From positions 1-22,746 of the IMG/VR virus record IMGVR_UViG_3300001533_002814: a DNA stretch of 22,746 nucleotides; one strand, given 5' to 3'. The number at the start of each line of letters is the position of its first letter. The stretch's first letter is position 1. The notes under the pieces were generated by a model. It searched no databases and had not been told where the DNA came from. It saw nothing but the letters and a program-made list of their open reading frames with translations. The stretch is from a virus. Below are positions 1 through 22,746 of this stretch, piece after piece. The translations under genes and the position numbers were made by a program.

Positions 1-258
1 ACCAGCTCGGTATGCGCCGCAATCGAATCCGGAAACTCTGACCTCGGCATGTCGCCGGTCTCGGAAGTCAGATAACCCCGGCTTCCGACCCAGGTCTCGG
101 TCGCCATATCATCGATGTCATACTTTGTAGCAATCGCACCGGTCGTATCGCTCCAGACCACCAGCTCGGTATGCGCCGCAATCGAATCCGGAAACTCTGA
201 CCTCGGCATGTCGCCGGTCTCGGAAGTCAGATAACCCCGGCTTCCGACCCAGGTCTCG
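1..258. repeat. 159-bp tandem repeat in fibre gene
   Basis: Bases 1-99 and 160-258 are identical by eye, giving a period of 159 bp, exactly 53 codons. A 45-bp core of the same unit recurs at 680-724. In the minus-strand reading frame the unit encodes a fibre-type repeat with the phrases WVGSRGYLTSETGDMPRSEF and DSIAAHTELV. The repeat starts at the very edge of the window, so further copies may lie outside it. The identity of the second copy ends at 258, exactly where the reading frame of the gene to its right is lost, which suggests recombination or an assembly misjoin. Confidence 0.9.
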
Positions 259-1435: not shown

Positions 1436-1449
1436 CTTTTTTTATCCTC

Positions 1450-1950
1450 TTAATCTATATCAGGCCAATCACCAGCCTGTATCGGATCATCTACTTCAAC
1501 CAAATTGTAATAATCCCCGCTCACACTGCCGGGTTTCAAAATAAGAAGTAATGGAAGTTTTCTCGTTTCTGTTGCAAAATTCAAATCAATTCTGGGAACG
1601 ACAATACATCGATAACCAAGCCTCCAAAGCTGCCAAATAATCGTTTCTGATTCTGTAATGGGAACTCTATAACGAGCAAGGATCTCATTGCCGGCATTAT
1701 TCCTGATGAAATCAATCTCATCCTTATTTGTCTGTAATAAAGTCGTCTCAACGACGACCTTTTCATTGCCGCATAACAGACTCTGATATCTACCGGTTTC
1801 ATAGTATATGTCCTCGGTCTCTATCTCGTCCAATAGCCTGGTGCTTTCAAGATAGCCCAATTCAGAATAGATAAATTCCTCATTATCGCAAACCTCGAAA
1901 ATACCACCACCCCTAATATTGACCCGATGTCTTTTTTTACCAAGCGCCAT
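1450..1950 (-). CDS. Tail-tube-like structural protein, copy 2
   Basis: This 166-residue protein is a paralogue of the upstream gene (1951-2451), about half identical by eye and of the same length. Shared blocks are MALGK-R-RVNI-GGG, GYLE-T, LLQTNK-EID, RNNAG, the IDLNFATETRKLPL stretch, and EVD-PI--DWP at the end. The pattern of a lysine-rich start, a DE-rich block (LLDEIETEDIYYETG) and an LLQTNKDEID segment resembles major tail-tube proteins of siphophages. That and its position after the connector genes suggest tail tube, but I have no catalytic or diagnostic motif. The start codon directly follows the upstream stop and no good Shine-Dalgarno site is visible, so translation is probably coupled. 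Confidence 0.6.
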   Translation of the reverse strand: MALGKKRHRVNIRGGGIFEVCDNEEFIYSELGYLESTRLLDEIETEDIYYETGRYQSLLCGNEKVVVETTLLQTNKDEIDFIRNNAGNEILARYRVPITESETIIWQLWRLGYRCIVVPRIDLNFATETRKLPLLLILKPGSVSGDYYNLVEVDDPIQAGDWPDID

Positions 1951-2451
1951 TTAATTAACCGTGGGCCAATCTAATTCTTCGATGGGGCTATCAACTTCGG
2001 CAACATCATAATATTTGCCTGTAACAGTGCCCTTATGCAACACCAAACTCAACGGCAATTTTCGGGTCTCTGTTGCAAAATTCAAATCAATTTTTGGCAC
2101 AATTTGACATGCTCCAAACGCCCAGATTTGCCACACGATTGTTGACGATTCCGTAATGCCAACCTGATAGCGGGCTAAAACCGTGTCCAAACCCGCATTA
2201 TTGCGTACCAGATCGATTTCTTCTTTGTTTGTTTGCAATAATACAGTTTCTACTGACACCTTCTGATTGCCAGGTAACATACGCACATATTCACCAGCCT
2301 CATCATGTTGATCAACAACTTCACTTTCATCAACAATATGCGTATTCTCAAGATAACCGACAACACTCCAGCTCGTCCCCTCATCTATACTTATTTCAAG
2401 CACTCCGCCGCCCTTAATGTTTACTCTTGCTCTATTTTTTCCCAGAGCCAT
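1951..2451 (-). CDS. Tail-tube-like structural protein, copy 1
   Basis: The first of two tandem 166-residue paralogues (see 1450-1950). The start chosen is the ATG before ALGKNRARVNIKGGG, because a GAGGAGG ribosome binding site lies about 9 bases upstream and the paralogue starts at the same point. A longer frame exists, but it would read into the palindromic repeat at 2503-2575. Conserved blocks with the paralogue are ETVLLQTNKEEID, RNNAG, ITES-TIVWQIW and IDLNFATETRKLPLSLVL. The likely role is the tail tube or another oligomeric virion component that assembles beyond the connector. The duplication may give two specialised subunits. Head-tail joining proteins are possible alternatives. Confidence 0.6.
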   Translation of the reverse strand: MALGKNRARVNIKGGGVLEISIDEGTSWSVVGYLENTHIVDESEVVDQHDEAGEYVRMLPGNQKVSVETVLLQTNKEEIDLVRNNAGLDTVLARYQVGITESSTIVWQIWAFGACQIVPKIDLNFATETRKLPLSLVLHKGTVTGKYYDVAEVDSPIEELDWPTVN

Positions 2452-2502
2452 GACAAAAACCTCCTCAATTATATTCGTTACGGACAGGAACTCCAGTATC
2501 CC

Positions 2503-2575
2503 TGTCATTCCTGCGGATGCAGGAATCTCCTTATTGATAGATGGTTAGGAGATGCCTGTATTCGCAAGCATGACA
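2503..2575. repeat. Nested palindromic element (MITE/REP-like), copy A
   Basis: A 28-bp left arm (2503-2530, TGTCATTCCTGCGGATGCAG...) and a 28-bp right arm (2548-2575) are inverted copies, 23 of 28 positions matching, around a 17-bp centre. The left arm is itself a hairpin (ATTCCTGC-GGAT-GCAGGAAT). The outer ends are TGTCAT...ATGACA. The same design occurs at 13266-13377. Such TGTCATTCC elements are dispersed, non-coding repeats in many bacterial genomes, mobilised in trans. Here one lies between the exported-protein gene and the tail-tube genes. Confidence 0.75.
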
Positions 2576-2609
2576 TGAGAAACTAACATTTAATGAATAT
2601 ATTTACAAG

Positions 2610-2631
2610 AAAGGCAGCCGAAGCCGCCTTT
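2610..2631 (-). terminator. UUCG-loop hairpin, probable terminator
   Basis: On the minus strand the sequence folds as AAAGGCGGC-TTCG-GCTGCCTTT, a 9-bp stem with one G-U pair and a very stable UUCG tetraloop. It lies after the tail-tube upstream region and before the exported-protein gene stop at 2652 in map terms; transcripts from 2652-3182 enter it just after their stop. The U-run is poor on the minus strand and better, after a gap, on the plus strand (2640-2649), so it may act as a processing or pause hairpin instead of a strong terminator. Confidence 0.5.
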
Positions 2632-2651
2632 AATATCTTGTTTTTTTTTAT

Positions 2652-3182
2652 TTAATCCCAGAAGGTGAGCCCAACTTCCCCGCCAACAGTGCATGTATCT
2701 CCGGAAGCTGCAGCCGCCACAACTCTGAATCGTCCGACTCTTGTGTAAGGATGTGTGGAAATCTGTTTTATTCGTTTCATTGTTGCACCCTTGTCGGATG
2801 TCGTACTCTTTAATGTATCCCAAATACCATTGCTATTATCCCAGGGATACCAAGTCCACCCTCCGGAGCTATTCTTATAATTTGCCAGATCGAGATAAAT
2901 AACATTAAACATTGAATCCGTACTATCAGACTCTGTCGCCCAAAACGTAGTGCTAAGGGTCGTTGCAAATTGTTTTGAAAGTTTACGCGGATTCTCATTT
3001 ATCGCCAAAAAAAATACTTTGCTGGTATCCTTTCCGGTAGCAGCAATCAAATTGCGGGTGTACAAAGTGTTTTCCGAATAGTTATTACCAGCCCAGGATA
3101 GATAATGCGTTTGGTGCATCTGAGCAGCTACCAAAAACGCAATCGAGAACAAAACCAACATAAAAGCCAAAAGCCCCTTCAT
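2652..3182 (-). CDS. Exported protein of unknown function in tail region
   Basis: The 176-residue product begins with a Sec signal peptide (MKGLLAFMLVLFSIAFLVAA, then QMHQTH). The mature part is rich in Ser, Thr, Trp and aromatic residues (YLSWAGNNYSENTLYTRN, GGWTWYPWDNSNGIWD) and looks like a soluble beta-rich domain; I recognise no family. It sits between the tail-completion gene and the tail-tube paralogues, a place where virion genes are expected, but the signal peptide points to the periplasm or cell surface. It may be a lysogenic-conversion gene or an exported decoration. A palindromic repeat and a hairpin lie downstream. The ribosome binding site is weak. Confidence 0.7.
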   Translation of the reverse strand: MKGLLAFMLVLFSIAFLVAAQMHQTHYLSWAGNNYSENTLYTRNLIAATGKDTSKVFFLAINENPRKLSKQFATTLSTTFWATESDSTDSMFNVIYLDLANYKNSSGGWTWYPWDNSNGIWDTLKSTTSDKGATMKRIKQISTHPYTRVGRFRVVAAAASGDTCTVGGEVGLTFWD

Positions 3183-3207
3183 GATTCACTGCTTGTTTAA
3201 ATGATGT

Positions 3208-3654
3208 TTAAATTACCTTTTCTGCTTCATCAATTGCTTCTGAAAACTTTGTCAAAAATACAAGTTCCGCTGCGACAACCTCTCTTCCGCCGATGACAAA
3301 TCTCCGGTAAATTCTACGCTCCAATTGAATCGAGAAGTTTATTTCACTCATAATTTGAACATTGACTAACTTTGACAATCTTTCAACATTGCGCCACTGA
3401 CTATCTAAATTGTCTCGCCCCTCTGTTAAAGTATCCAATACATAGCATTTGCAACGGCGCGCTACAATGTTCATCTCCAATGATTCATCTTTAGATATTA
3501 CATCATCCCAAACTTCATCCAACACAAACGCCGGATAATCTTCATATTCCGCATCATCAAACGGATAATTGGTAACCTTTTTAAATTCATTAAGATTATT
3601 TACCAAATCCAACAGCGGAAAAATGTAATCATCCTGGATATTATTATAGAACAT
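3208..3654 (-). CDS. Putative tail terminator / tail completion protein
   Basis: This 148-residue protein follows the HK97-gp10-like gene, overlapping it by 11 bases. That is the usual position of the tail terminator, which caps the tail tube and joins it to the head. The length fits, and the sequence alternates strand-like segments (FVLDEVWDDVIS, EMNIVARRCKCYVLD, ELVFLTKFSEAID) in the manner of this alpha/beta family. The assignment rests on synteny and size rather than on a motif. A Mu gp37-like protein of unknown function would be the alternative. Confidence 0.5.
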   Translation of the reverse strand: MFYNNIQDDYIFPLLDLVNNLNEFKKVTNYPFDDAEYEDYPAFVLDEVWDDVISKDESLEMNIVARRCKCYVLDTLTEGRDNLDSQWRNVERLSKLVNVQIMSEINFSIQLERRIYRRFVIGGREVVAAELVFLTKFSEAIDEAEKVI

Positions 3655-4881: not shown

Positions 4882-5802
4882 TTAATCTGATCCATAAACA
4901 ATGGCATCAGATACAGCATACTTCGCATCGATGCCGGCGGTGATCGTCACTTCAACCAGCCTCTTTCGATTATAAATATCACGACCAACTTGTATCTCAT
5001 CGCCAAATCCAATCGCCAGATTCCGTTTCGGGGTCAACAACATTTTTCCGTCCGGATTCTGAAAAACCGCGACAATCTGAATACCGTGATAGTAAAGCGG
5101 TTTTTCACCGAACAATACTGTATCACCCAACGCAGTGACACGCTCTCCGATCTGGTCCGCGTAAGCTTCATAAACATCAGGCGAAACAAACATGCCCAGC
5201 TCCGAACGATCATCTTTGTAATCTTTGGGAAGTTGCGCCAACATACCAGGAAAAATAGTTCCCAAATAATCTGATCCGGAAATCACATAATCATGAACAT
5301 TTGCATCGGCGCTTGCTTGTTTATAAAAACCGTTGAAAATCCGCTTGCACTTGTTGAGGCGGGAATTGGCTGCCAACGTCGTATCGCCGTTGAAAGCAAC
5401 AATCACACAGTCCTTTCCGAATCGCTTCGAGAAAATTTTGTTCAGCGTTTCGTTGACGCTACTTCCTTCGATATTCTTACGTAAGAAATCAAATGTGATA
5501 TCATACGCAAGCAGTACCTGGTTAGGTGTTAAGGCTTTCCGTGTGATTGTCGGGGTAACAACATCTTCGCTATCAGGTGCGGTAGCTTCGGTCGCCGCAA
5601 CCATGGCCGGATCGCCAAGCTCAATCGAATCCAGATTGCGCGCCACCTTAATTCCGGTCTCTGTTCTGATCATTCCCAAAACTTTAGTTTGCTCGGTCGC
5701 CAAATCGATAAATGCCTCAGCATCCTCGGTTTGCGCCAGTCCGCCGACACTGGTCGTTATCTGAGCCTTGAGAAGCTCTAACAATTCCTCATTGTTTAAC
5801 AT
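4882..5802 (-). CDS. Major capsid protein (HK97 fold)
   Basis: The 306-residue product has the length and layout of a major head protein that needs no large N-terminal delta domain. The N-arm (FIDLATEQTKVLGMIRTETG) is followed by the E-loop/P-domain region (ALTPNQVLLAYDITFDFLRKN). A central segment SPDVYEAYADQIGERVTALGD leads to a C-terminal A-domain ending PDGKMLLTPKRNLAIGFGDE and YAVSDAIVYG, phrases typical of phage capsids of the XkdG/P2-type HK97-fold groups. It is encoded right after the XkdF-type protease, the usual arrangement. A strong AAGGAG site precedes the start. It forms the icosahedral shell around the packaged genome. Confidence 0.85.
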   Translation of the reverse strand: MLNNEELLELLKAQITTSVGGLAQTEDAEAFIDLATEQTKVLGMIRTETGIKVARNLDSIELGDPAMVAATEATAPDSEDVVTPTITRKALTPNQVLLAYDITFDFLRKNIEGSSVNETLNKIFSKRFGKDCVIVAFNGDTTLAANSRLNKCKRIFNGFYKQASADANVHDYVISGSDYLGTIFPGMLAQLPKDYKDDRSELGMFVSPDVYEAYADQIGERVTALGDTVLFGEKPLYYHGIQIVAVFQNPDGKMLLTPKRNLAIGFGDEIQVGRDIYNRKRLVEVTITAGIDAKYAVSDAIVYGSD

Positions 5803-5830: not shown

Positions 5831-6967
5831 TTAAATGAACTTCAAACCTTTTTTTGCTTCTCCCTTATCATCTCCATCCTGACCCTTTGCAGACTGCCGG
5901 CCCGGCGATGCCTTCTCGATCTTTTCCAACCGAGTTAAAACAGGCTTCAAAGCCTTTTCGATGGCATCTGATACATGGTCCTGATTGTCGACTTTTTTGT
6001 CGTCGTCAGGTTTTTTGTCCTTGCCATTTTCATCGGGCTTTGTATCGGGCTCTTGTTTCTCAAGTTTTCCCAAACGATCAATAACCGGCTGCAAACTTTC
6101 ACCCAACAACTTTTTGACATCATCGATTTCCATCTTTTCCACCTTCTTGTTTTGTGATTCATAGATTTTTATCAATTCACCCAATGCATTGTGCGCTGCC
6201 TTAATTTGATTGAAATTCGTAGCGCTAAAAACCTTTCCCTCTTTCTTGAGATCTATCTTGTCGATCACTTTCAAAAATTGATCGATATTTTTCTTAATCT
6301 GATCACGTTGCTGCGCGGGTGTCGCCTTCTTTTTATCCGGGTGATCTTGCCATATTATCTTATCGATTGAGCGATTTAAAGCACTCGTCGCCCGGCGCAA
6401 TTCTTCGTTTTCATACTCGGCATTAAAATCTTTTTCGATGCCTATTTTTTTTAGCAATTTTGTAAAAAATGAATCGTCTTTTGTTATATTATCCGTCTCG
6501 ATTTCTCTCGCTACTCCCGCCAAACTAACCCCTGTAATTTCTCCTTTTTTAATCGACTTCCAGGTATTATCATTCGTTATCTTTATACCTACCGCCCAGG
6601 AACCCTCCGGATCATCAGCAAACAAAGGATCATTGCTTTTAGTCAGCCATGATTCTGCAACGAAACCTTCATCAGGATTAAAATCATGTTGTTTGTCGAC
6701 TTTAGTAGTGCGCCGCCTCTCCATAAAACGATATGCAGCTTTTTTTATTTCTTCTGCGCTACTAATGTCGCCCTGAAGATCCTCTTCTTCGGGCGAATAA
6801 ACAATACAATAAATGATACGTTCGTCTTCATCAACCTTCCGAATAGTAACCTGCCGCAGCTCTGGTTCATCATCAAATTCCGCTGATTTCCAAATTAGCT
6901 TTTTCTGATTCGCTCCCTTCCGAACAAGCGAAATAAATGTTACATCTATATCGAAAAGTCTGCGCAT
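5831..6967 (-). CDS. XkdF-type capsid maturation protease fused to scaffold
   Basis: The N-terminal ~165 residues match the XkdF/S78_2 serine protease group: an LVRKGANQKKL opening, IVYSPEEEDLQGD with the following AEEIKKAAYRFM helix, KVDKQHDF with the presumed catalytic His about residue 94, WAVGIKI, and GEITGVSLAGVA with the presumed Ser about residue 148. The rest is helical and charged, with long Lys/Asp-rich stretches (KDKKPDDDKKVD) and heptad-like repeats, as in scaffolding domains. Such fusions build the procapsid and then cleave themselves. The ATG at 6967 is preferred over the GTG at 6979 because AGGTGGG lies upstream. It is the first gene after the promoter region at 7015-7078. Confidence 0.85.
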   Translation of the reverse strand: MRRLFDIDVTFISLVRKGANQKKLIWKSAEFDDEPELRQVTIRKVDEDERIIYCIVYSPEEEDLQGDISSAEEIKKAAYRFMERRRTTKVDKQHDFNPDEGFVAESWLTKSNDPLFADDPEGSWAVGIKITNDNTWKSIKKGEITGVSLAGVAREIETDNITKDDSFFTKLLKKIGIEKDFNAEYENEELRRATSALNRSIDKIIWQDHPDKKKATPAQQRDQIKKNIDQFLKVIDKIDLKKEGKVFSATNFNQIKAAHNALGELIKIYESQNKKVEKMEIDDVKKLLGESLQPVIDRLGKLEKQEPDTKPDENGKDKKPDDDKKVDNQDHVSDAIEKALKPVLTRLEKIEKASPGRQSAKGQDGDDKGEAKKGLKFI

Positions 6968-7014
6968 AAAATAACCCACCTTTATTATTTTATAAATCGG
7001 ATAAATAATTTTGA

Positions 7015-8491: not shown

Positions 8492-8733
8492 CAAAATCCC
8501 TCCTTCGCTCGTTTGCTGAATGGTTTCATAAAGTCCTTAAATGGTTTCCACTTAAAATCTTTATTCTCTTCTATTGCTTGTCGTAGCTCATCCCAGAGAT
8601 CAGCGTTTTTTGATTGATCCAAACCCTCCAGAAATTCAAAAGCCGAATATATTGCTTCCGGAGGACGTGTCGCACGCCAGCCTTCGATCTCCTCGATGAT
8701 TCTCTTTAATTTTTCTTTTTCACTTGCAGCCAT
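8473..8733 (-). CDS. Small acidic helical protein, candidate immunity partner of MuF toxin
   Basis: The 86-residue product is charged and helical (KEKLKRIIEEIEGWRATRPP, AFEFLEGLDQSKNADLWDEL) with an aromatic C-terminus (GFWWWNAI). It starts inside the end of the MuF gene (28-base overlap) with a good GGGAG site, so it is translated together with it. Small, partly acidic proteins encoded directly after polymorphic toxins are usually their immunity proteins. Because the MuF C-terminus looks like a BECR-type nuclease, this is the best candidate for the antidote. I recognise no named family, so the role is inferred from position. Confidence 0.6.
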   Translation of the reverse strand: MAASEKEKLKRIIEEIEGWRATRPPEAIYSAFEFLEGLDQSKNADLWDELRQAIEENKDFKWKPFKDFMKPFSKRAKEGFWWWNAI

Positions 8734-10046
8734 AGCTCCCTGTCCTTTAATTTATCAAATGTAATGTTTACATCTTTTTGAAAATAACAACCCCGAACCC
8801 TCATCCCACGATCAACAATGACCATGCAATTACTTTTCGTCGAATAAAAACAGAACTGCAATTCGCTTTTATCTCCGCTATATTCATAGATTTTTGCCGT
8901 GATCTTATCTGCATTTTTGATCGCTTCATTTGCATAAGCCTCATAATCTGCTGCTGTTTTGAAATTAATACCTGATCTCCACGCATGTTTTTTAAAATCA
9001 TGTCCCAGATCTTTGCGGTCGAAAGTTATTTTCTCGCGGTCCAAAACAGCCTGCATCCAATTCGCATATTCCTCTTTTGAATATGCATCCAGCCGTCGAC
9101 GTTGTTCTTTATCAGTAATATCCGATCCTATATGTTTATCAACTTTATATTCATTCTCTTTATAAATAACTGTTCGCGTTCGGCAATTCCAGTGATACGG
9201 CGGCAACTTTACGCCCAGTGGAAGACTATCTGTTTTTAGATCCTGAACATCAAATTCACGCTGCCACGGAGCAAATTCTTTCACTTCTTCCGGAGATTTG
9301 GCATTAATAAAACTATCTCTCAACTTTACCGCATCCGCTACCTCGAAAATTCTGCCATGCATCTCCCTACATATCGGAGTTGTACGATGATCCAATACTG
9401 CCCTAATCTCGTAGCGGGTTATTTCGGCCTTGACCATCGCCTCGACTTGACCCAATGATCTGGACCTGGTTACAACATGATTGGCAAACCCCTCCCAATA
9501 CTTCGTACCATGCGCATCATATTTATCAGCCAACTCTGTAGCAAACAACTTCCCCGCCTCGATGCGTGGAATTCCTTCTTGTATGATTTGATTGCCAAGT
9601 TCATAAGTAAGCTCAGCTAAATTATTATCCCATTGATTTTTTACCCAATAGATATTATGCTCTTCTAACGCCCTGATCGCGCGCTGATCCACCACATTAA
9701 ATGACGGCTTGACACCAATAAGCTGGCGTTGTGAATGCCCATAGCAATCGGTCTCAATCTCGAACATTGGATTCGCCATCCGGTTAGCAAATTTTATTCC
9801 CAAATCATTAGAAAGCCCCTGATAAATTTCTTCCATCTCAGAATCGGTAATCTTTCCCTTTCCCTTTGCCAATCGTGTTATCACATCAGCAATCGCTTGT
9901 TTGCTCGTTTTTTCCCATTCATGTAACAAAAGATCCTGCAAATCGCGCACTAACCGATCAAATTTGTCTCCCTTGATAACCACAAAAATAGAATCGATCT
10001 CTCTTATTGTCTGTCGTTTTAAATTCATTTTATCGGCTAATTCCAT
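8706..10046 (-). CDS. MuF minor head protein with C-terminal nuclease-like toxin domain
   Basis: The 446-residue product has a helical N-terminus, then the MuF (gp30/SPP1 gp7-like) core at about 130-295. Its signature is D-HRTTPICREMHGRIF (residues ~219-234) and PPYHWNCRTRTV (~282-293). MuF proteins sit inside the head near the portal and can travel with the DNA. Residues ~345-446 are an extra module, GHDFKKHAWRSGINFKTAADY followed by strands including CFYSTKSNCMVIVDRG and VRGCYFQKD. This matches the pattern of the Barnase-EndoU-ColicinE5-RelE (BECR) nuclease-like domains found at the C-termini of polymorphic toxins, with His349 or His354 as possible catalytic residues. The MuF part is firm; the toxin assignment is by pattern. 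Confidence 0.85.
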   Translation of the reverse strand: MELADKMNLKRQTIREIDSIFVVIKGDKFDRLVRDLQDLLLHEWEKTSKQAIADVITRLAKGKGKITDSEMEEIYQGLSNDLGIKFANRMANPMFEIETDCYGHSQRQLIGVKPSFNVVDQRAIRALEEHNIYWVKNQWDNNLAELTYELGNQIIQEGIPRIEAGKLFATELADKYDAHGTKYWEGFANHVVTRSRSLGQVEAMVKAEITRYEIRAVLDHRTTPICREMHGRIFEVADAVKLRDSFINAKSPEEVKEFAPWQREFDVQDLKTDSLPLGVKLPPYHWNCRTRTVIYKENEYKVDKHIGSDITDKEQRRRLDAYSKEEYANWMQAVLDREKITFDRKDLGHDFKKHAWRSGINFKTAADYEAYANEAIKNADKITAKIYEYSGDKSELQFCFYSTKSNCMVIVDRGMRVRGCYFQKDVNITFDKLKDRELWLQVKKKN

Positions 10047-10925: not shown

Positions 10926-12215
10926 TTATCCCTCGTTTTCGAGCCGTTCCCTGACTGTTTGTAAACCTTTCAAAAAACTCCCGAGATTATCATCCCCTTT
11001 CCTGATCAGCGGCGGTCTGCTTATAACATCACGAGCTTCATCCTCGGTAAGCAATTCGGCAGTGCGCAATTTAATAGCATATTCAGCATCTTGCATCATA
11101 TCAGTAACGTCCATTTCATTAAACTTTATCCGCCACTTCTTTGCATCCAGCCCTTTCAAAATACTCTTATTTATTAACTCCTCGAACCGGTGTTGCTCCG
11201 GGTCGATCACGGTTTCCTTGAAAATCTTGAATTGCTCCATCGCCTCTTGTGAGTCCCCAATCTTACCGGCTGTAACAACTCCAACCAGTCGCGGTGGGAC
11301 GCCATGCGCCGCGATTACCTCATCCCGGGAATTTTCCCGCAGTTTCATAAATCCGCCCTCCTTCTCTTTAGCTTCCAATTGCGCTTTTTCGACACGAACC
11401 TTAACGTTTGGATCTTTGACCGGTATAACTATCAATCTGCCCGTATTTTTTATACCTTTCCCATGCATACCGAGAAAATTCCGCAGTTCAGCTTTAGCAT
11501 TAGGGCTTATATCTCCACCCTCGATGATGAGAAATGATGTTGCCAACATCCCATTTTCGAACATATAAGTATTGAACGATGCCGCCGCCCGATCCAGACC
11601 CATCGTAACCATTGATGGAATCCAATCAGGAAGTCCATAATAATCGCTTTGGGGATCATAATTGTAATAATGTAATATTTCATTATCCCCGAATTCTTTA
11701 TCTCCAAAATTGCGGAAAAACTTTTTCTTTTGTGCCCGCAGCTGCCAATATCCACCGAACTCTTTATCTCGGCGTACTGTTCTCCCGGGGATATGATAGA
11801 TATCTGAAATTTCACCCAGATTATTCCTGGCCACCTCTATATATCCATTGCCTATGCTCAAATAGTCGATCAAACATCGATAACACAATTCCGTAAATGT
11901 CAGCTCCTCTCCGAATATATTATCTTGACTCGGTTTTTTGAGAAAATCTGAAATTCTATTGTATTCATCATCAGGATTCTTATTTTGGTCGTCCGTATCA
12001 AGTGTCCAGCCAAAACCTCCGATAACTCGCGCTTTTAATGCAATGCACCGCCTATGCCAGGTATTGATTTCGAAAAACTGCATCAGATCATCAAAATCAA
12101 GCCGTGGCGTTACCGCATTAATTGAGCTCCATATTTTATCAGCTATCTGCTCGCTTGCTTTTTTAATGGGAACCGCATCAAGAATAAAAACATTGTCTAT
12201 TGCCGGCTTTTCCAT
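10926..12215 (-). CDS. Portal protein (PBSX/HK97 type)
   Basis: The 429-residue product is a phage portal of the PBSX-like group. Early motifs are WSSINAVTPRLDFDDLMQFF and the TWHRRCIALKARVIGGFGW segment. The middle has LIDYLSIGNGYIEVARN and IYHIPGRTVRR, followed by EILHYYNYDPQSDYYGLPDW. The helical crown region carries the diagnostic VIAAHGVPPRLVGVVTAGKIG, then KIFKETVIDPEQHRFEELIN. Twelve copies form the ring at one head vertex through which terminase pumps DNA and to which the tail joins. AGGTAGG precedes the ATG. It lies between terminase and MuF genes, separated from terminase by five small genes, which is more than usual. Confidence 0.9.
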   Translation of the reverse strand: MEKPAIDNVFILDAVPIKKASEQIADKIWSSINAVTPRLDFDDLMQFFEINTWHRRCIALKARVIGGFGWTLDTDDQNKNPDDEYNRISDFLKKPSQDNIFGEELTFTELCYRCLIDYLSIGNGYIEVARNNLGEISDIYHIPGRTVRRDKEFGGYWQLRAQKKKFFRNFGDKEFGDNEILHYYNYDPQSDYYGLPDWIPSMVTMGLDRAAASFNTYMFENGMLATSFLIIEGGDISPNAKAELRNFLGMHGKGIKNTGRLIVIPVKDPNVKVRVEKAQLEAKEKEGGFMKLRENSRDEVIAAHGVPPRLVGVVTAGKIGDSQEAMEQFKIFKETVIDPEQHRFEELINKSILKGLDAKKWRIKFNEMDVTDMMQDAEYAIKLRTAELLTEDEARDVISRPPLIRKGDDNLGSFLKGLQTVRERLENEG

Positions 12216-13563: not shown

Positions 13564-15030
13564 TTACATAATCTCTATTTCTTTAATTTCCGAATCAAAT
13601 CCATGTTCTAACAATCTGACCGCTCCTTCCAATGCATCCGGCCCATCATCTTTCACCACCGAGCTCGGAAACGCTATCAACTGTTCGATTAAATCAATTT
13701 GACCATCCTGCAGTAATATCTGGCCACGTTCGAACATCGGCGATAACCTACCGATACGCACCTCCTTGTTTACCGTCTGCGGATATCCCCTCACCGGCAG
13801 AATATAACCTTTTTCTTTACCCATCCGCTCGAATTCGGGAAGCAACAATTCAAACGCCCCCACAGCCTCCAAACCGATCTGCGCAATGATGCCGCCCTGT
13901 TGACGAAAATACTCGTAAATACTATACGTAGCATAAATCATCTCCATCGTAGAAGCATGTTTAATCCACGTATGAAGTACATAGAAATATGGATATCCTT
14001 CAAATGGTTTTCCAACTGTGACTATCGCTTTATAATCATGCTGTTCTTTCTGTTTTACACTTGGATCGATATATGATATGATATGTAATTTCTTTAAATC
14101 CAGCGTTCGCAAATTGAAATATTTGAACCACTTGTCATCAAATAGAGACACCTCGCTGCGTACATCAAGCATATATTCTTTGAGATATTTGACTGTACCG
14201 ATGACCCTTTTAATGTTTTTAAGTCTGCGCTTATTAAAAACACCCGGCCAGGTCGGCTTACCATCCGCTGTTTCAGCAGGAATCTCGATAGTTCTGATAT
14301 TCTCGTTCTTCTTCAATTCGGTCGCCGCACACTTTTTAGCGATGACCGTTCCCAAAAAATAAATCTGAAAATCATCACCCATCGCCGGGACCAATTGATC
14401 CATCAGAATATCGACTCCCTCCTTGACATATCTGGGATTTTTGACATTCTTGTCGTTCTCCCATTCATCTATAATCGCCAAATCAGGACGATATTGAATA
14501 TATTTACGGCTGCGGATTTTAGACATCCGTCCCAGACATTTACCCATACAACCGCATTTCAAAATAAACTCCTCGCTTTCCCAATGCTTTGAACGCTGAT
14601 CGCCGAAGTCCTCCCGCAACCGGAGATTGTTCTCTATCTCCGTCCGAATAGTCAACGAATAGACAAGCTCTGCCTGATCAACCGTATCACTTAAAAAGAG
14701 TACAAAGCGCCTCTTCTTTTGCAACATCTTCAGCAATGCATAAATTGAAAAAAACGTTGTCTTCCCGAATCCCCGGAAAGCTAATATCTGCACCAACTCA
14801 TTATTAATATCAAGAACATCCAATAAACTTTTATGCTTTCCGCTCCAGCGATCAGGAAAATGATGCGGAAAATAAGTTTTCATTGCCCAGAGAATATCAG
14901 TCTCCGTCTGTTGCAATCGACGTTGTTTTGCTTCCGCCGAGTTGTCTTCAAAAGGCCGAACTTCCGAGCGAATCTGTTGAATAAGCATCTCCGCCCGGCG
15001 ATCATACTCATGTAATGATGTTTTTCTCAT
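13564..15030 (-). CDS. Terminase large subunit
   Basis: The 488-residue product is the packaging motor. The ATPase part has a Walker A at residues 85-92 (FRGFGKTT) with the adenine-side ILA before it, and a Walker B with catalytic Glu in LAIIDEWE (184-191). The coupling motif lies near YFLGTVI (224-230). The RNase H-like nuclease part has Asp322 in SYIDPSVK, Glu388 in IGLEAVGA and Asp465 in DDGPDALEGA, the usual three metal-binding acids. It cuts and pumps phage DNA into the head through the portal. The order small terminase, inserts, large terminase, portal matches Mu gp27-gp28-gp29. The start overlaps the coiled-coil gene upstream by 23 bases. Confidence 0.92.
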   Translation of the reverse strand: MRKTSLHEYDRRAEMLIQQIRSEVRPFEDNSAEAKQRRLQQTETDILWAMKTYFPHHFPDRWSGKHKSLLDVLDINNELVQILAFRGFGKTTFFSIYALLKMLQKKRRFVLFLSDTVDQAELVYSLTIRTEIENNLRLREDFGDQRSKHWESEEFILKCGCMGKCLGRMSKIRSRKYIQYRPDLAIIDEWENDKNVKNPRYVKEGVDILMDQLVPAMGDDFQIYFLGTVIAKKCAATELKKNENIRTIEIPAETADGKPTWPGVFNKRRLKNIKRVIGTVKYLKEYMLDVRSEVSLFDDKWFKYFNLRTLDLKKLHIISYIDPSVKQKEQHDYKAIVTVGKPFEGYPYFYVLHTWIKHASTMEMIYATYSIYEYFRQQGGIIAQIGLEAVGAFELLLPEFERMGKEKGYILPVRGYPQTVNKEVRIGRLSPMFERGQILLQDGQIDLIEQLIAFPSSVVKDDGPDALEGAVRLLEHGFDSEIKEIEIM

Positions 15031-15241: not shown

Positions 15242-15832
15242 CTATTCCTTTTTAATTATCTTATCACCATAGTCAATAAAATAAGGATAACCATTTTTTA
15301 AACTATCAACCATGCCAGGATCATAATCAATTTCTAAATAATTGCAGATATCTTTTAAACATCTTTTCGAAGATGTCAAATCTTTTAATGTCACTAAAAA
15401 ATAAGGATAAAATAATCCCCTATGAGTTAGAAAAGTCAAATCTTTATTACATTTTATAATATATTTCTCCGCCAATCGTTTGTCATATCCATTTCTTTTG
15501 ATTAAACTTTTTATATTTTCCTTACTATCTCTCTTAATGACTATAATCTTACTATCGAGATCCATAAAATCGAAAATTGACATATTCGATTTGGGAAAGA
15601 CTTTAATAAATCTGTTCAATAAATGAGTTACTCGATTCGCCCTAATCATTTTCATTATTTGTTTGATATAGATCAGTTTATTCCCGCGATATTTTTTCCC
15701 GATAAGCTTTTTTACATTTCCGTGGAAATCCTCTGAGAGCATATTAATATCTTTATGTCCCCCAAGTAAAGTCGCCAATAACGATGTGCCGCTATGTTCA
15801 GCGCCAACAACTAACAGATATTTGCTTTTCAT
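15242..15832 (-). CDS. Sulfotransferase-like protein
   Basis: The 196-residue product begins KYLLVVGAEHSGTSLLATLL, a P-loop of the type that binds the 5'-phosphosulfate of PAPS in sulfotransferases (VGxxRSGTSLLxxLLxxH). Around residues 95-110 the phrase KIIVIKRDSKENIKSLIKRN has the Arg and Ser spacing of the 3'-phosphate-binding motif. It is shorter than most family members (250-300) but both key motifs are present. It would transfer sulfate to an unknown acceptor such as a glycan or peptide. It is more AT-rich than its neighbours, sits only 13 bases after the small-terminase gene, and interrupts the terminase pair, so it looks like an acquired cargo gene. A nucleotide kinase is the alternative. 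Confidence 0.7.
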   Translation of the reverse strand: MKSKYLLVVGAEHSGTSLLATLLGGHKDINMLSEDFHGNVKKLIGKKYRGNKLIYIKQIMKMIRANRVTHLLNRFIKVFPKSNMSIFDFMDLDSKIIVIKRDSKENIKSLIKRNGYDKRLAEKYIIKCNKDLTFLTHRGLFYPYFLVTLKDLTSSKRCLKDICNYLEIDYDPGMVDSLKNGYPYFIDYGDKIIKKE

Positions 15833-16353: not shown

Positions 16354-16764
16354 TCATGCTTGATTCGCATCTCTTTTTTTAATTTGAAACCGCAACGTCC
16401 TTTCCATTGCAGCGATCAAATAGCCAGCTTCTCTTTTATTGATTTCCTCGATTTCCAAATTCAATATCTTTTTGCAGAAACCTTCCAGCCGCCGCCGGTT
16501 CAATGACCATCCCAATGCCGTCTCTAATTCTTTTATCCGATATTCCTGTGCCCGCGTCATATTTACCCAGCGATGATTTGTCGATTGAAAGCCAACTGAT
16601 TTGAAAAACCTCATCAATCTTTCAAATTTAATTAGCGTTAAATCAATCGAACTTTCTACGCCGCATATATTACGTAATGCATCTCGATAATCAAGATCAT
16701 CAAGTCGCAATTTCGCCTTCGCAACATGAATCAATGCTATCTGTTTTTTGTTGATTTTTGCCAT
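16354..16764 (-). CDS. gemA: GemA / Mu gp16-like regulator
   Basis: The ATG at 16764 (MAKINKKQIALIHVAKAKLR) is taken as the start, because the family begins with the IALIHVAKxxLxLDDxxYRxxL phrase; an upstream extension has no support. The 136-residue product continues LDDLDYRDALRNICGVESSI and a helical middle (KFERLMRFFKSVGF), with a basic Arg/Lys-rich C-terminal half (LGWSLNRRRLEGFCKKILNL). In Mu, gp16 (GemA) affects host gene expression and the switch to late genes by altering DNA supercoiling; its mechanism is not settled. It lies between Gam/Zn gene and terminase, as in Mu-like phages. Confidence 0.8.
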   Translation of the reverse strand: MAKINKKQIALIHVAKAKLRLDDLDYRDALRNICGVESSIDLTLIKFERLMRFFKSVGFQSTNHRWVNMTRAQEYRIKELETALGWSLNRRRLEGFCKKILNLEIEEINKREAGYLIAAMERTLRFQIKKRDANQA

Positions 16765-16942
16765 TAGTATATTCCAAGATAATTTTATTGATTTTTTTAT
16801 AAATACAATCGCAGATAATCTTCTTGCCTGTATTGACATTTTTACCAATAACACCCCGCCCGAAGCAGACCTTACAGTCTGCTTCGGCCGTGATCTCATC
16901 TATTCTGCCCTGTAAATATTGATATGTTGCCTGTGAGATCAT
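16700..16942 (-). CDS. Small protein with DnaJ-type Cys motif
   Basis: This 80-residue protein contains CKVCFGRGVIGKN and a second pair in KKIICDCIYKK, together a four-Cys zinc site similar to the CxxCxGxG repeats of DnaJ. The N-terminal helix (YQYLQGRIDEITAEADC) precedes it. The start at 16942 lies 3 bases after the Gam stop, with its GGGATA site inside the Gam end. The C-terminal 20 residues are read through the GemA start in another frame (65-base overlap). Small Cys proteins between Gam and gp16 are common in Mu-like phages, but no role is known. Confidence 0.7.
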   Translation of the reverse strand: MISQATYQYLQGRIDEITAEADCKVCFGRGVIGKNVNTGKKIICDCIYKKINKIILEYTNGKNQQKTDSIDSCCEGEIAT

Positions 16943-16945
16943 GAT

Positions 16946-17494
16946 TTATCTTATCCCGCTTATAACATCCATTTTCGGCATCGACTGGATGGCCTCTTCC
17001 TTCACCTCATACCAAAAATCATCGGAAATCTCCAGATGTACACCAAATACCGCCATTTCATCATCGGATAGATTGGCCTCTCTGATCGCAGTCTTATTGA
17101 CACTCTCCTTTATTGCAATAAAACGTTTGCGTTTCGCCTCTTTTAACTTTGCCAATACTTTGTTCCAGGTCCATTTTGGAAGTGTCTTCAACGCTGAAGA
17201 TTTCCGATATCCGACCACTGCAAAATTTAATTCCATAGAGCGCTTCGTTTTATCGAAATCGCACTTATTGAACACAGCGAAGTCTTCGACATCTTTTTCC
17301 AGACGTATCTTTTCTGTCTGTAAACTTTCTGCTTTTTTATTCGCCTTTGACTTCGCATCATTGATCGCTTTTTGCATTTCCGTTTCGATCTTCTCCAATT
17401 CCAAATTAATGTAAGCGATCTTCCTTAAGCCTTGATCGACATCATCCCAACTTTTTAGAATTGGGGACTCTGTTACCTTGCTTCTGTTTCTCAT
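16946..17494 (-). CDS. gam: Mu Gam-like host-nuclease inhibitor
   Basis: The ATG at 17494 (MRNRSKVTES) follows AGGAGGTC by 7 bases, giving 182 residues, the normal size of the Mu Gam family. Marks of the family are ILKSWDDVDQGLRKIAYINL near the N-terminus, the long coiled coil (IETEMQKAINDAKSKANKKA), and GYRKSSALKTLPKWTWNKVL in the middle. Gam is a Ku-like dimer that binds linear DNA ends and protects phage DNA from RecBCD-type exonucleases. The gene is followed closely by the Zn-protein gene. Two closely spaced start options exist; the one chosen has the ribosome binding site. Confidence 0.88.
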   Translation of the reverse strand: MRNRSKVTESPILKSWDDVDQGLRKIAYINLELEKIETEMQKAINDAKSKANKKAESLQTEKIRLEKDVEDFAVFNKCDFDKTKRSMELNFAVVGYRKSSALKTLPKWTWNKVLAKLKEAKRKRFIAIKESVNKTAIREANLSDDEMAVFGVHLEISDDFWYEVKEEAIQSMPKMDVISGIR

Positions 17495-17675
17495 CGTGTT
17501 TGACCTCCTGGTTTTTAGTTGCATTTAATAATTTGAGGCAACTATCGGCGTCGAGAATTAAATAACTTCTTCCCCGCAAAACGCCGCTAATCACATACAA
17601 CATAACAATCAGCACACCCATCAAAAAACCGGATGTGCCCACAAAGATAATCAAATAAAGCATCGAGCTTTCCAT
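17442..17675 (-). CDS. Small membrane protein upstream of Gam
   Basis: The 77-residue product starts MESSMLYLIIFVGTSGFLMG and continues VLIVMLYVISGVLRG, a long hydrophobic region that forms one or two membrane segments. The rest is hydrophilic and Lys/Gln-rich (NQEVKHDEKQKQGNRVPNS). A TAGGAGAT site lies 4 bases ahead of the ATG. Its 3' end overlaps the Gam gene by 53 bases in another frame. No family is recognised. It may be one of the holin-like or host-takeover membrane peptides common in early regions. Confidence 0.6.
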   Translation of the reverse strand: MESSMLYLIIFVGTSGFLMGVLIVMLYVISGVLRGRSYLILDADSCLKLLNATKNQEVKHDEKQKQGNRVPNSKKLG

Positions 17676-18282: not shown

Positions 18283-19161
18283 TTATTGAACCAGCAATCC
18301 ATAAGCAGCCCGAATCCGCTCCTCATCGGTCTCGCCCATTTCAGCAAATAATTTCGAGCGTTCCAGCAGCTTATCCATTGTCCTTAATTCACCAGAATTG
18401 TGGATCCAACCCATCATATCATTGATAAATTGCCTCGAAAACTTAAAACCATGCCGCTCACAAATCATCTCGACATCCTCGCGCCGCGGAGGCGTAATAT
18501 CGCGCCGGAAGCCAACTCGCGAATATAACTGCGCCAGATTTTCTTTTAGCGTCTGTCCGCGCGTCAACAACATCAACAATCGCGGCAACCCAATCAGGAC
18601 CATCGCGCATGATCCATTATCGAAAATCGCCCTCAAAATCTCCAGATGCCGCACCTGAAGCAAATCCGCTTCATCAACGATTATCATCCTGAAACGCCGT
18701 TGCAAACTTCGTTTGATAGCCGTTAAACGCTCGTTCAAACTGCCGCCAGGAGTAGCCTCGCCCAGAGCAAATAATATCTGATCAAGCAGCTCCTTTGCTG
18801 TAATCGCTTTGTTCATTACCACATAAGCTGCATGTTCATTTAGCATCGAATAATATCTAACTGCTTCGGTTTTGCCTACGCCGGAATTACCAGTAATAAC
18901 AGCCAATTCTCTGCATTTTGAAGTCAATTCCAACACCTTTTGAACAGCTTTAAAACCAGTCGTATTACATAAATTCCAACGATAATCCCACTCATTTAAA
19001 AAATTCTCAAGACCATTAACAATATTGTCTTCACTCGCCTGATACTTGCCCGAGAGAACTTGTGATATTGTCGAGCGCTCATACCCTGTCGCCTTCTTCA
19101 AATCTCCAAGCGTTATCGTTCCCTCATCGAGCATCTTGTTGATTCTTTTTTTGACATCCAT
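18283..19161 (-). CDS. B: MuB-like AAA+ transposition ATPase
   Basis: The ATG at 19161 follows GGAGGGC and shares bases with the stop of the previous gene (TGATG). The 292-residue product has an N-terminal helix-turn-helix (LGDLKKATGYERSTISQVLS) as in MuB. The AAA+ core follows, with Walker A GNSGVGKT (~91-98), a strand with MIIVDEADLL as Walker B (~159-168), and IGLPRLL as sensor. A basic C-terminal part starts at RRDITPPRREDVEMI. MuB binds ATP and DNA, delivers target DNA to the MuA transpososome and activates strand transfer. Its length is close to MuB (312). Confidence 0.9.
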   Translation of the reverse strand: MDVKKRINKMLDEGTITLGDLKKATGYERSTISQVLSGKYQASEDNIVNGLENFLNEWDYRWNLCNTTGFKAVQKVLELTSKCRELAVITGNSGVGKTEAVRYYSMLNEHAAYVVMNKAITAKELLDQILFALGEATPGGSLNERLTAIKRSLQRRFRMIIVDEADLLQVRHLEILRAIFDNGSCAMVLIGLPRLLMLLTRGQTLKENLAQLYSRVGFRRDITPPRREDVEMICERHGFKFSRQFINDMMGWIHNSGELRTMDKLLERSKLFAEMGETDEERIRAAYGLLVQ

Positions 19162-19532
19162 CAGCAAGCCCTCCCCCCTTCATTAACTTTTTTTATTAAT
19201 TGAATCGGTTGAATTTCTTGTGCTTCTACAACTTTCCGAAAACATTCCTTACACGCATTACAAAAATCACCAAGCCCAACCTTGAATTCAGTCGAAATAA
19301 TACTTCCGAATGGTCGTATTAGCCCTATAAATTCGTCTTGATAATAAATATATCCTGTTGATGGGGGCATTCCTTCTTTTTCATGATTTGTTTTGTTATA
19401 TTTAACACCCCAGGATTCATCGATTTTAAATACGATAATATCAGCGCTCTCGTACAATTCCATCCCGTAAGCCATCAAAACCCGCATGAAATTGAAATAG
19501 CCGATGTCAAGAGTAAAACGATTGTTTGTCAT
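19161..19532 (-). CDS. Small Cys protein between transposase and MuB genes
   Basis: The 123-residue product starts after a clear GGGAG site and ends at the MuB start. It has the segments FNFMRVLMAYGMELYESADI, a strand pair around STGYIYYQDEFIGLIRPFG, and near the end LGDFCNACKECFRKVVEAQE, where three Cys (CxxCxxC) may bind metal. In Mu A and B are adjacent; a gene in this place is an insertion characteristic of some Mu-like phages and of transposon families. I recognise no family. Translation of MuB is coupled to it, so a part in transposition or its control is plausible. Confidence 0.65.
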   Translation of the reverse strand: MTNNRFTLDIGYFNFMRVLMAYGMELYESADIIVFKIDESWGVKYNKTNHEKEGMPPSTGYIYYQDEFIGLIRPFGSIISTEFKVGLGDFCNACKECFRKVVEAQEIQPIQLIKKVNEGGRAC

Positions 19533-19562: not shown

Positions 19563-21449
19563 TTAATTAGTACCCAATTTTTTCTCGATCCACGCCCATG
19601 AATCTTCTTTCTGTTTTTTATTTTCCCTTTTAATCCTCCTTTCTTTTTGTTGTTGTTCGGCCGCCCGGTCAAATCGCGTCTTCTGAATACGCTCACCCGG
19701 CAATATTATTTTATCGGCTTTGCTTATTTTTTCATTGATTTCCGTCATTACATCTTTGATAATCTTTCGCTTGAATTCGATCCGCTCCCTTGTTAGCGCA
19801 GGATCCTTCATCGATGAGTAAATATAAGGTGTCGCTGTACATATAAACTTATTCTTATAAAACACCTGGATAAATGTCCGATCTGCTGGATCGTAACGCA
19901 CCTCAACATTTCTTCCTATCAAATCGACTAACTTCGCATCATAATATTGTTCATTATTAATGCGAATGCCGATCTTTGAAACCTTGCGTTGCGCCGGCAT
20001 CAGAAATAAAATATCTGCCGAAATTTTAGTTATCGTTGCCGGCTCATATCCATTATTTAAACACGTCTGGAAAGTTTCCACTGGACTCATACCCCGCATT
20101 CCCCTTCCTCCATGCGAAGTATTATTATACTTTTTGACTACCTCAAGCACAAATTGCCAGAATTCATCAATCTTAATATAGCTTTTCTGTTTCCGTATCA
20201 GCTTCAATTCATCTTTATCAGGATCTTCAAGACTACCAACCCGATTTCCAGACCAACCCGGAATCCCTTTGGCTAAAAGTCCCCGTTCAATTTCTTGAAA
20301 TGTCCTTTCAATGAGTTTCGCCTGGCTATTTCTAACAATCGCGCGTATCTGATTAACATCCAACTCTGAATAAATACCTCGATATTCCTTTTCAAAAGCG
20401 TTCTCAAACCACATCTGAAATTCTGCATCATTTGAGCGCACCTTAATATCCAATAACCCGCCGGCTGTCAAATAATTCGACAACTCTGGCTTGCCCCAAT
20501 CTGTATAGACAGAACCGGGAATTCCGTAAATACCCAGATTATCATCATCATCGACAATTCCCATTCTTAATGCCTTGCCAATTGTAAACCTATTATAATC
20601 TTCATCCATTGCGACACCGCTGACCCCCCGTGTTTTCAAATCCTGCCATAAATATCCGGTAGGTCTGAATATCCTATCATCAGCCGGATCCAAAACAAAA
20701 AAGTTGAACCTGTGCTGATCGCCGACCCAAAATTCATTCGCTTCCAGATCGCTATAATCTCTCAATACCGGTGGTCCAACTTCCGTATCCAGCCCCCGCC
20801 GTCCCCGGCGACGGTAAATATCAAGTTTATCAGGTAACTCCTTGATTATCCTTTGTAAGCTCCGTAAACTGCCGATCTTTGCTCCCATAGCTTCCGCCTG
20901 CATCGAAACTCGATAATATATCTCCTTAACTGTAAGCCGCCGTCCTTTTTTGAGAAAAAACCCGATGGCCATCTCCATAACTTCATCATCCCAGCTCCTC
21001 AATTCGCCTATATCAGACCGTTTCTTCCTCGCAAAAGCCATCGGGCTACGTTGTTTCTGATATTCCCCAAGCCAACGATACAGCGTGCGAGATGATATAT
21101 CAGATTGTTTCGCTATCTTCGCTATCCATTCACCTTTCCTAACACCTTCCGGGCTCATCGCCCGCTCACAAATTATTTTTCTGTTTACCAATACGGCCCG
21201 ACGCCCATCATCAAGAAAATCGCTCTCTGATCGACTTTCATTGCCGCCATATTTCGATTTATAATATCGTATCTGCGCCTCTGGCGTAAGCTCGGAAAAA
21301 TGAATGAAATATTTTCTTATCCCATTAGAAAGAATAGAAGTCTGTATTTTGTTATAGTTACCTGCTTCGATCCTTAATCTAATAGCACGGTCTGTCAGTC
21401 TTTCAAATTCAGCAGTTTCCTCTGTGGTAAGATATATACCATTCCCCAT
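19563..21449 (-). CDS. A: MuA-like DDE transposase
   Basis: The 628-residue product is a Mu-type transposase. Residues 1-70 form an end- or enhancer-binding domain (YLTTEETAEFERLTDRAIRL). A helix-turn-helix, DISSRTLYRWLGEYQKQ, lies at ~117-133, followed by a second DNA-binding region to ~225. The RNase H-like core carries the DDE triad: Asp244 (WVGDQHRF), Asp317 (YTDWGKPE) and Glu381 in SQAKLIERTFQEIE, with spacings like Mu (D269, D336, E392). A beta-barrel follows near 500-545 (NVEVRYDPADRTFIQVFYKN), and a basic tail (DRAAEQQQKERRIKRENKKQ) would contact MuB. It cuts and joins phage ends for integration and replicative transposition. The length is slightly below MuA (663). Confidence 0.95.
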   Translation of the reverse strand: MGNGIYLTTEETAEFERLTDRAIRLRIEAGNYNKIQTSILSNGIRKYFIHFSELTPEAQIRYYKSKYGGNESRSESDFLDDGRRAVLVNRKIICERAMSPEGVRKGEWIAKIAKQSDISSRTLYRWLGEYQKQRSPMAFARKKRSDIGELRSWDDEVMEMAIGFFLKKGRRLTVKEIYYRVSMQAEAMGAKIGSLRSLQRIIKELPDKLDIYRRRGRRGLDTEVGPPVLRDYSDLEANEFWVGDQHRFNFFVLDPADDRIFRPTGYLWQDLKTRGVSGVAMDEDYNRFTIGKALRMGIVDDDDNLGIYGIPGSVYTDWGKPELSNYLTAGGLLDIKVRSNDAEFQMWFENAFEKEYRGIYSELDVNQIRAIVRNSQAKLIERTFQEIERGLLAKGIPGWSGNRVGSLEDPDKDELKLIRKQKSYIKIDEFWQFVLEVVKKYNNTSHGGRGMRGMSPVETFQTCLNNGYEPATITKISADILFLMPAQRKVSKIGIRINNEQYYDAKLVDLIGRNVEVRYDPADRTFIQVFYKNKFICTATPYIYSSMKDPALTRERIEFKRKIIKDVMTEINEKISKADKIILPGERIQKTRFDRAAEQQQKERRIKRENKKQKEDSWAWIEKKLGTN

Positions 21450-21469: not shown

Positions 21470-21721
21470 TTAGTTGTAGGAAATATTTTCTTGACTTTGA
21501 CGTGTAAAGTAATTATTTTCACCATTAGAATAGCGGGTATATAGTCGGTTAAAACATTTCCACACATCTTTACCAGGAGCAAGCCCATAAATAACCTGGT
21601 AAATATATTGACGGCTATATCCCAACGATCTGGCTATATCAGCCTGACTCAAATCAAAATCGATGAGCATTTTTTTTATTACTTTAGGATCACGCGGACA
21701 TGATTTTAGCTTTGTTTTCAT
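21470..21721 (-). CDS. ner: Ner-like helix-turn-helix regulator
   Basis: This 83-residue protein contains LSQADIARSLGYSRQYIYQV, a helix-turn-helix of the XRE/Ner-like type. It is encoded first in the early transcript, divergent from the repressor, exactly where Mu encodes Ner. Ner represses the early promoter and the repressor gene to allow lytic growth. A clean ribosome binding site (CAGGGAG) precedes the ATG. Sequence similarity to Ner proper cannot be judged by eye; position, size and fold support the call. Confidence 0.75.
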   Translation of the reverse strand: MKTKLKSCPRDPKVIKKMLIDFDLSQADIARSLGYSRQYIYQVIYGLAPGKDVWKCFNRLYTRYSNGENNYFTRQSQENISYN

Positions 21722-21829: not shown

Positions 21830-22288
21830 ATGAATATAAAAAATAAAAGAATAAATGAGTTATTGAAAATACTCAATATAAATCAAAAAGAATTCTGTGA
21901 AAAAACAGGAATAAAACAAAGTAGAATGTCCCAAATTATGTCTGGTAAGATTAAACCGGGCATCGACGTTTTAGAATTGATTAATAAGACATTTGATGTA
22001 AGATTAAGATGGCTACTAGGTGGAGAATATCCTATATTTAAATCTGATTTGGAAGAAAAGGGAATTGTATCTGATGAAGTTGTTTATTTGTCAGATAATA
22101 AAGAATTTAATCTAGATGGTATTGAAGAATTGATTCCTTTCTTAGAATCATATAAAAAAATCAAACAAAACATGGAGAAGAAAATCAAATCAGGAGATGA
22201 TATCACCCAAATATTAAAACATCTCTCAAAAAGGGAAAGAGAGATGTTAATATTTTTGATAAATATCAACAAATCTGGACAAAAATAA
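21830..22288 (+). CDS. c: Phage repressor (XRE family), lysogeny control
   Basis: The 152-residue product has an N-terminal XRE helix-turn-helix, QKEFCEKTGIKQSRMSQIMS, ending IKPGIDVLELINKTFDVRLR, followed by WLLGGEYPIF as in many phage repressors. The C-terminal part is helical and charged (FLESYKKIKQNMEKKIKSGD; ILKHLSKREREMLIFLI) and probably dimerises; there is no peptidase domain for RecA-mediated cleavage. It is the only sizeable plus-strand gene and diverges from the early operon, like Mu c. It is markedly AT-rich. No clear ribosome binding site precedes the ATG, so low or leaderless translation is likely. Confidence 0.85.
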   Translation: MNIKNKRINELLKILNINQKEFCEKTGIKQSRMSQIMSGKIKPGIDVLELINKTFDVRLRWLLGGEYPIFKSDLEEKGIVSDEVVYLSDNKEFNLDGIEELIPFLESYKKIKQNMEKKIKSGDDITQILKHLSKREREMLIFLININKSGQK

Positions 22289-22651
22289 ACAATTAAAAAT
22301 CGAAAAAAAACCACCTAAGTCACTTCCGCATGATTTTTTTTAATTATATTTGCAAGATACTTGTTATTTTAGGTTTAACTGACTTCCGCATCGACTTCCG
22401 CATGATTTTTGATGTTTTTCTTTCTTAATATCTTGTTTTGCATGCTTTTACCACACTTCCGCATAAGATGTCACAAGGTCTAACCGCTTTTTTTTCAGTA
22501 TATTATGTTTTATCGCTTTATTTCTGCATTGCATTTTCCACTATGTGCAAGTCCCTATTTTTCAATCACTCAAACACCCTAATCTTTTCCGCCCCCCAAA
22601 AAATAATTTTCCCTGTTATTGTGTCGTTAGGGCTCCTTTTCTACATTTCAT
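22289..22651. other. Non-coding left-end region of the phage
   Basis: The 363 bases between the repressor stop and the end repeats contain no convincing gene. An open hydrophobic frame on the plus strand overlaps the end repeats and has no ribosome binding site. The stretch holds the four 10-bp repeats at 22322-22464 and T-rich, probably bendable DNA. A weak third end-like site, CCTGTTATTGTGTCGTTA (22612-22629), shares about two thirds of its bases with the 19-bp end repeat. Confidence 0.6.
22322..22464 (+). repeat. Four copies of ACTTCCGCAT, regularly spaced
   Basis: ACTTCCGCAT occurs at 22322, 22382, 22394 and 22455, all in the same orientation, with start-to-start distances of 60, 12 and 61 bases. 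The first and third copies share a longer 17-base stretch, ACTTCCGCATGATTTTT. The 60/61-base distances are close to six helical turns, so the sites would lie on the same face of the helix. This looks like an array of protein-binding sites, either for the repressor or for the N-terminal domain of the transposase. Confidence 0.8.
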
Positions 22652-22746
22652 TGACATTTATTTTGTCGCCAAGTTTTTTTATAAACAACTACCCTTATTG
22701 TATTTAAAACAGTTTTCTTTTTTGACATTTATTTTGTCGCCCCACA
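22652..22746 (-). repeat. attL: Phage left end (attL) with two 19-bp transposase sites
   Basis: TGACATTTATTTTGTCGCC occurs twice, at 22652-22670 and 22723-22741, 71 bases apart. Read on the minus strand, the window starts TGTGGGGCGACAAAATAAAT, that is, a 5'-TG terminus followed within 5 bases by the outer site, as at the ends of Mu-family elements. Within each site TGACA and TGTCG form an imperfect dyad. In Mu, the left end likewise has several MuA sites next to the repressor. The exact coincidence with the window edge fits a contig ending where random host flanks begin. Confidence 0.75.

Follow-up and report, generated by a model that had tools for sequence, protein, structure and literature searches.

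A metagenomic viral contig that very probably stops at the left terminus of a Mu-like transposable phage

The stretch of DNA analysed here (the window) is a complete virus record consisting of one contig of 22,746 bases, and base 22746 is therefore a real contig edge. Proceeding inwards from that edge, the window encodes a phage repressor, a small regulator, a MuA-type transposase with an adjoining MuB-type AAA+ ATPase, Gam and GemA-like proteins and a series of virion genes (Table 1). Residues D244, D317 and E381 of the transposase are invariant, which indicates that its catalytic triad is intact. Since head and packaging genes (terminase, portal, Mu F-like protein, protease and head protein) are present in the same genome, the window is not a bare transposon. 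Between the late regulator and terminase genes, positions 15242-15832 give a weak sulfotransferase match that falls below the cut-off (PF13469, E=0.0018). At the other edge of the window, bases 1-98 are the same as bases 160-257 (a period of 159), and the contig's opposite edge is a repeat break (window 1-257) adjoining a tail-protein-like gene.

Table 1 Features of the window, listed from base 22746 inwards. Distances from the end are counted from base 22746.
Feature	Position	Strand	Basis or remark
Left terminus (very probable), 5'-TGT, phage bases 1-3	22744..22746	-	Same offset to site as in relatives; homologous base is the L170 contig edge
L1, outermost putative MuA-binding site, GGCGACAAAATAAATGTCAA, bases 6-25 from end	22722..22741	-	Outermost site of relatives at bases 6-27
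L2, second putative MuA-binding site, identical to L1, bases 77-96 from end	22651..22670	-	Exact direct repeat
Possible degenerate L3, CGACACAATAACAGGGAA, 42 bases inside L2	22609..22626	-	5 mismatches in 18
Four exact ATGCGGAAGT repeats	22322-22331, 22382-22391, 22394-22403, 22455-22464	-	Spacing 60, 12, 61
CI-type repressor gene	21830..22288	+	Directed toward left end, like Mu c
Small HTH regulator, placed as Mu ner	21470..21721	-	Profile matches and position
MuA-type DDE transposase (D244, D317, E381)	19563..21449	-	Pfam Mu-transpos_C E=4.8e-16, DDE_2, HTH_Tnp_Mu_2; PHROG 310 E=5e-81
MuB-type AAA+ target-selection ATPase	18283..19167	-	PHROG 296 E=1.5e-54; AAA_22
Gam end-protection protein	16946..17524	-	Pfam PF07352 E=1.4e-29; PHROG 491
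GemA-like protein	16354..16899	-	PF06252
Terminase large subunit	13564..15030	-	PHROG 38
Portal protein	10926..12215	-	PF04860
Mu F-like minor head protein	8706..10046	-	PF04233
Head maturation protease	5831..6979	-	PHROG 3017
Virion structural (major head) protein	4882..5802	-	PHROG 1623

Read from base 22746, the minus strand starts with TGTGGGGCGACAAAATAAATGTCAA. Two putative left-end sites lie near this TG, with TGT at base 1 and the sites starting at bases 6 and 77. A sequence-only reading of this DNA had reported a TGTGGGG start and two identical sites 71 bases apart, all of which we recover, while its site length of 19 bp needs correction: the direct repeat of GGCGACAAAATAAATGTCAA extends over 20 bp with no mismatch, at a start-to-start distance of 71. 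Within the terminal 400 bases, this exact repeat is longer than in all 1000 of 1000 dinucleotide shuffles (the largest being 15), and it is also the longest exact direct repeat among all 400-base tiles of the window. A search of the whole window for further copies with up to 3 mismatches returned none, 0.02 being expected by chance. The degenerate copy inside L2 was rejected as evidence for a third left site, an equally good copy having arisen in 272 of 2000 shuffles.

The genes next to the edge are also placed much as they are in Mu. Measured from the window edge, the repressor occupies bases 459-917 (in reverse orientation), the regulator 1026-1277 and MuA 1298-3184, and the same genes of Mu (NC_000929) lie at 339-863 (again in reverse), 1099-1326 and 1328-3319 from the terminus. 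Had the contig broken at an arbitrary point, such an agreement in gene position would be coincidental.

No close relatives of the window were found, with MuA identity reaching a maximum of about 35% in a search that may omit very near records, and single-sequence searches of viral contigs with MuA and the portal gave no matches. The closest MuA relative found, and the best-scoring at 31% identity, is that of L170 (IMGVR_UViG_3300033145_001745), an uncultivated 33-kb contig from a different metagenome. L170 and the window are grouped in the tree with support of 93/79, and the L170 MuA is as long as that of the window and lacks the insert of about 100 residues seen in the other group. The contig edge of L170, TATAGGGCGACAGAATAAATGACA (in a longer reading, TATAGGGCGACAGAATAAATGACATTC), aligns with the window edge from base 1 to base 1 without gaps, matching at 20 of 26 positions, and the two edges are reciprocal best matches when both strands of each whole record are considered. 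In a viral collection of 2.9 million contigs the pattern GGCGACANAATAAATGNCA occurs in six stretches, and only the one in L170 is located at a contig edge. The exact 20-bp site GGCGACAAAATAAATGTCAA is found in no other viral contig; a looser pattern, TGNNNNGCGACA..., was discarded, as it matches only within unrelated coding sequence. From these alignments, a biological end is the best explanation for a pair of contigs from separate metagenomes having their edges at homologous bases. Positions 1-4 of L170 read TATA in place of the TG that the Mu rule predicts, and the TA may reflect either a real change or a contig-end error. Genomes of the D3112 group start with TGT and end with ACA (PMC5977238). 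A candidate sequence in L170, TGTACCACGCC, reads TGT, carries two sites 22 bp apart and ranks 4 of 66,189; it is the probable right end of L170, with moderate support.

Integrated relatives provide a view of complete ends, no integrated copy of the window phage itself having been found. A 42,711-bp prophage in G001 carries a GCCTT duplication on both sides, and its ends, TGTAAGGCGTAACGTATTCGGCGACAAATG and TGTCAGGCGTAATCTATTCGGCGACACAAA, are alike at 24 of 30 positions; a second prophage, of 38,686 bp and located in G015, is flanked by a CCAGC duplication. TG/CA ends with 5-bp duplications, which the sequence-only reading had put forward as a check, are thus seen in both, and MuA is described as joining the ends to phosphodiester bonds of the target that lie 5 bp from each other (PMC5847225). 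The ends of G002-G008 and of most viral relatives were not found by duplication and inverted repeat alone, and a position-weight model of the known ends then located ends in many further contigs. As in the window, base 6 is where the first site starts in another 15 left ends from this group. This outer site of the relatives spans bases 6-27, a second left site often lies about 95-150 bases in, and right-end sites are found at 6, 28 and sometimes 48.

The sequences outside these ends differ in character from case to case. L189 and L206 are 99.99% identical over 10,312 bases from the terminal TG inward, with unrelated flanks outside, and L185 and L205 are one phage with an identical flank in both. 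The L021 contig begins 3 bases (AAT) outside its left end and extends 80 bases beyond its right end (GGGAC...), and since the two flanks do not pair up into a 5-bp duplication, separate insertions are their probable origin. In this group, contigs end 3, 11, 14, 37 and 43 bases beyond the left end, and stops within 50 bases of it are commoner than a uniform spread over 2 kb would give (rough P 9e-6, calculated from 14 edge-reaching contigs, with two carrying about 2 kb of flank excluded and a model trained on some of the contigs themselves). Mu-like phages carry packaged host DNA at each of their ends; its length is 50-150 bp on the left in Mu, 31-36 bp for the D3112 group (both PMC5977238) and 29-31 bp for hankyphage (PMC12135933). 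L175, L180 and L208 start with 255, 256 and 256 flank bases outside their left ends, near-equal lengths that are perhaps an assembler effect.

We propose that, with high probability, the window covers the leftmost 22.7 kb of the genome of a Mu-like transposable phage, that the natural left terminus of this phage falls at base 22746 and that the two repeats are the outer MuA sites L1 and L2. The sequence-only reading had likewise taken the edge for a Mu-like left end, and the homologous edge of L170, the site at base 6 and the Mu-like gene distances all support it. Transposition into many places is the means by which Mu-like phages copy themselves. In the window phage, MuA, aided by MuB, would pair L1 and L2 with the right-end sites, cleave at the terminal TG/CA and attach the phage ends to the target at points 5 bp apart, so that phage copies would adjoin different host sequence in different molecules. 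Because such molecules would share one sequence as far as the first phage base and diverge outside it, the contig would be expected to stop there. The binding of MuA to L1 and L2, the variable flanks of the window phage and its right end are all features that we infer from sequence.

A true terminus at base 22746 does not itself specify where the DNA came from. It is quite conceivable, at somewhat less than even chances, that it came from lysogens carrying the prophage at a variety of sites and not from the replicating or packaged phage that the sequence-only reading had inferred, a reading that otherwise agrees with the one proposed. An assembly will break at the terminus whenever insertion sites are mixed, and the single flank shared by L185 and L205 points to lysogens among the sources in this group. 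Nothing in the window speaks against such a source, although contig edges alone fit free phage equally well. As different lysogen insertions give the same break, the edge is no proof of free or replicating phage.

The exact register of the end deserves separate consideration. When the relatives' end model is applied to the window edge, the edge ranks 8 of 1599 TG positions and the base-6 site scores -7.3. This poor score implies that the window sites belong to a different sequence class and match the relatives in position only, and since the sites go unrecognised by the model, it was kept out of the evidence on the window edge. The 10-mer GCGACAAAAT is found at bases 21-30 in several relatives' right ends as opposed to bases 7-16 in the window; were it to mark the same register, the end would lie 14 bases further out, and the best match of the relatives' model within the first 1297 bases, at base 63, uses GGCGACAA of L2 in that register. 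However, the identity of L1 and L2 covers GGCGACAAAATAAATGTCAA and breaks off directly upstream of it, which places the start of the conserved site at base 6, as in the relatives, and L170 ends at the same base, as a random truncation would not. We consider it improbable that the phage is Mu-like but has its true terminus about 14 bases beyond the contig edge, with a coincidental TG at that edge. Less probable still, the assembly may simply have broken at random and by chance near the left end. In favour of this reading, the window's opposite edge is an ordinary repeat break and many relatives' contigs end well away from phage ends; against it stand the TGT at the edge, the site exactly at base 6 and the homologous edge of the independent sister contig L170.

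Further inside the proposed terminus, the four ATGCGGAAGT repeats lie 280-430 bases from the left end and have no copies elsewhere in the window; judged by sequence and place, they are a candidate operator or transposition enhancer. Differing repeats occur at about the same place in L170 (GCGTTAGTA, three copies), L021 (CGGAACCAC, three copies) and L189 (GTGGTTGCA). A more speculative and rather unlikely extension would make the window and L170 a deep Mu-type branch with its own site class, GGCGACAnAATAAATGnCA, perhaps with a less strict terminal dinucleotide (TA in L170), and maybe with the repeats at 280-430 bases serving as an enhancer or operator that replaces Mu's repressor-side enhancer.

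If base 22746 is indeed the left terminus, the genome end of an uncultivated phage has been fixed without reads. The metagenome contig edges of transposable phages are informative in that public contigs can yield termini and site sequences and, in some cases, target duplications, and such contigs, when classed as fragments, may nevertheless be complete at one end.

The window is a new, distant member of the Mu-type group, and its edge is the expected outcome of a well-known life style. Its nearest counterpart, L170, carries an end site of the window's class, equally far from the contig edge, but differs in its MuA, which is only 31% identical, in its TATA edge and in having no clear second left site. 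The larger MuA group (L008-L023 and L174-L208, uncultivated, together with prophages in Deltaproteobacteria MAGs such as G001) has TG/CA ends and 5-bp duplications and, like the window, an outer site at base 6 and an L2 further in, at about 95-150 bases, whereas its site consensus is AATGAAAGATATTCTGCGACAA and its MuA is longer and 29-35% identical. Bacillus phage BalMu-1 and Fusobacterium phage phiRTG5 are annotated transposase-encoding Mu-like phages, with MuA identities of 27-28% to the window; unlike the window, they fall on Mu's branch in the tree. The window MuA is itself remote from that of Mu (NC_000929), with a Mu end branch of 4.1 in the tree, and the two phages also differ in site sequence and in the HK97-type set of protease, portal and connector among the window's head genes. 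They nevertheless share the TGT end, the Gam, GemA and Mu F-like genes, and a left end in which a reversed repressor, a small regulator, MuA and MuB follow one another at nearly equal distances from the terminus.
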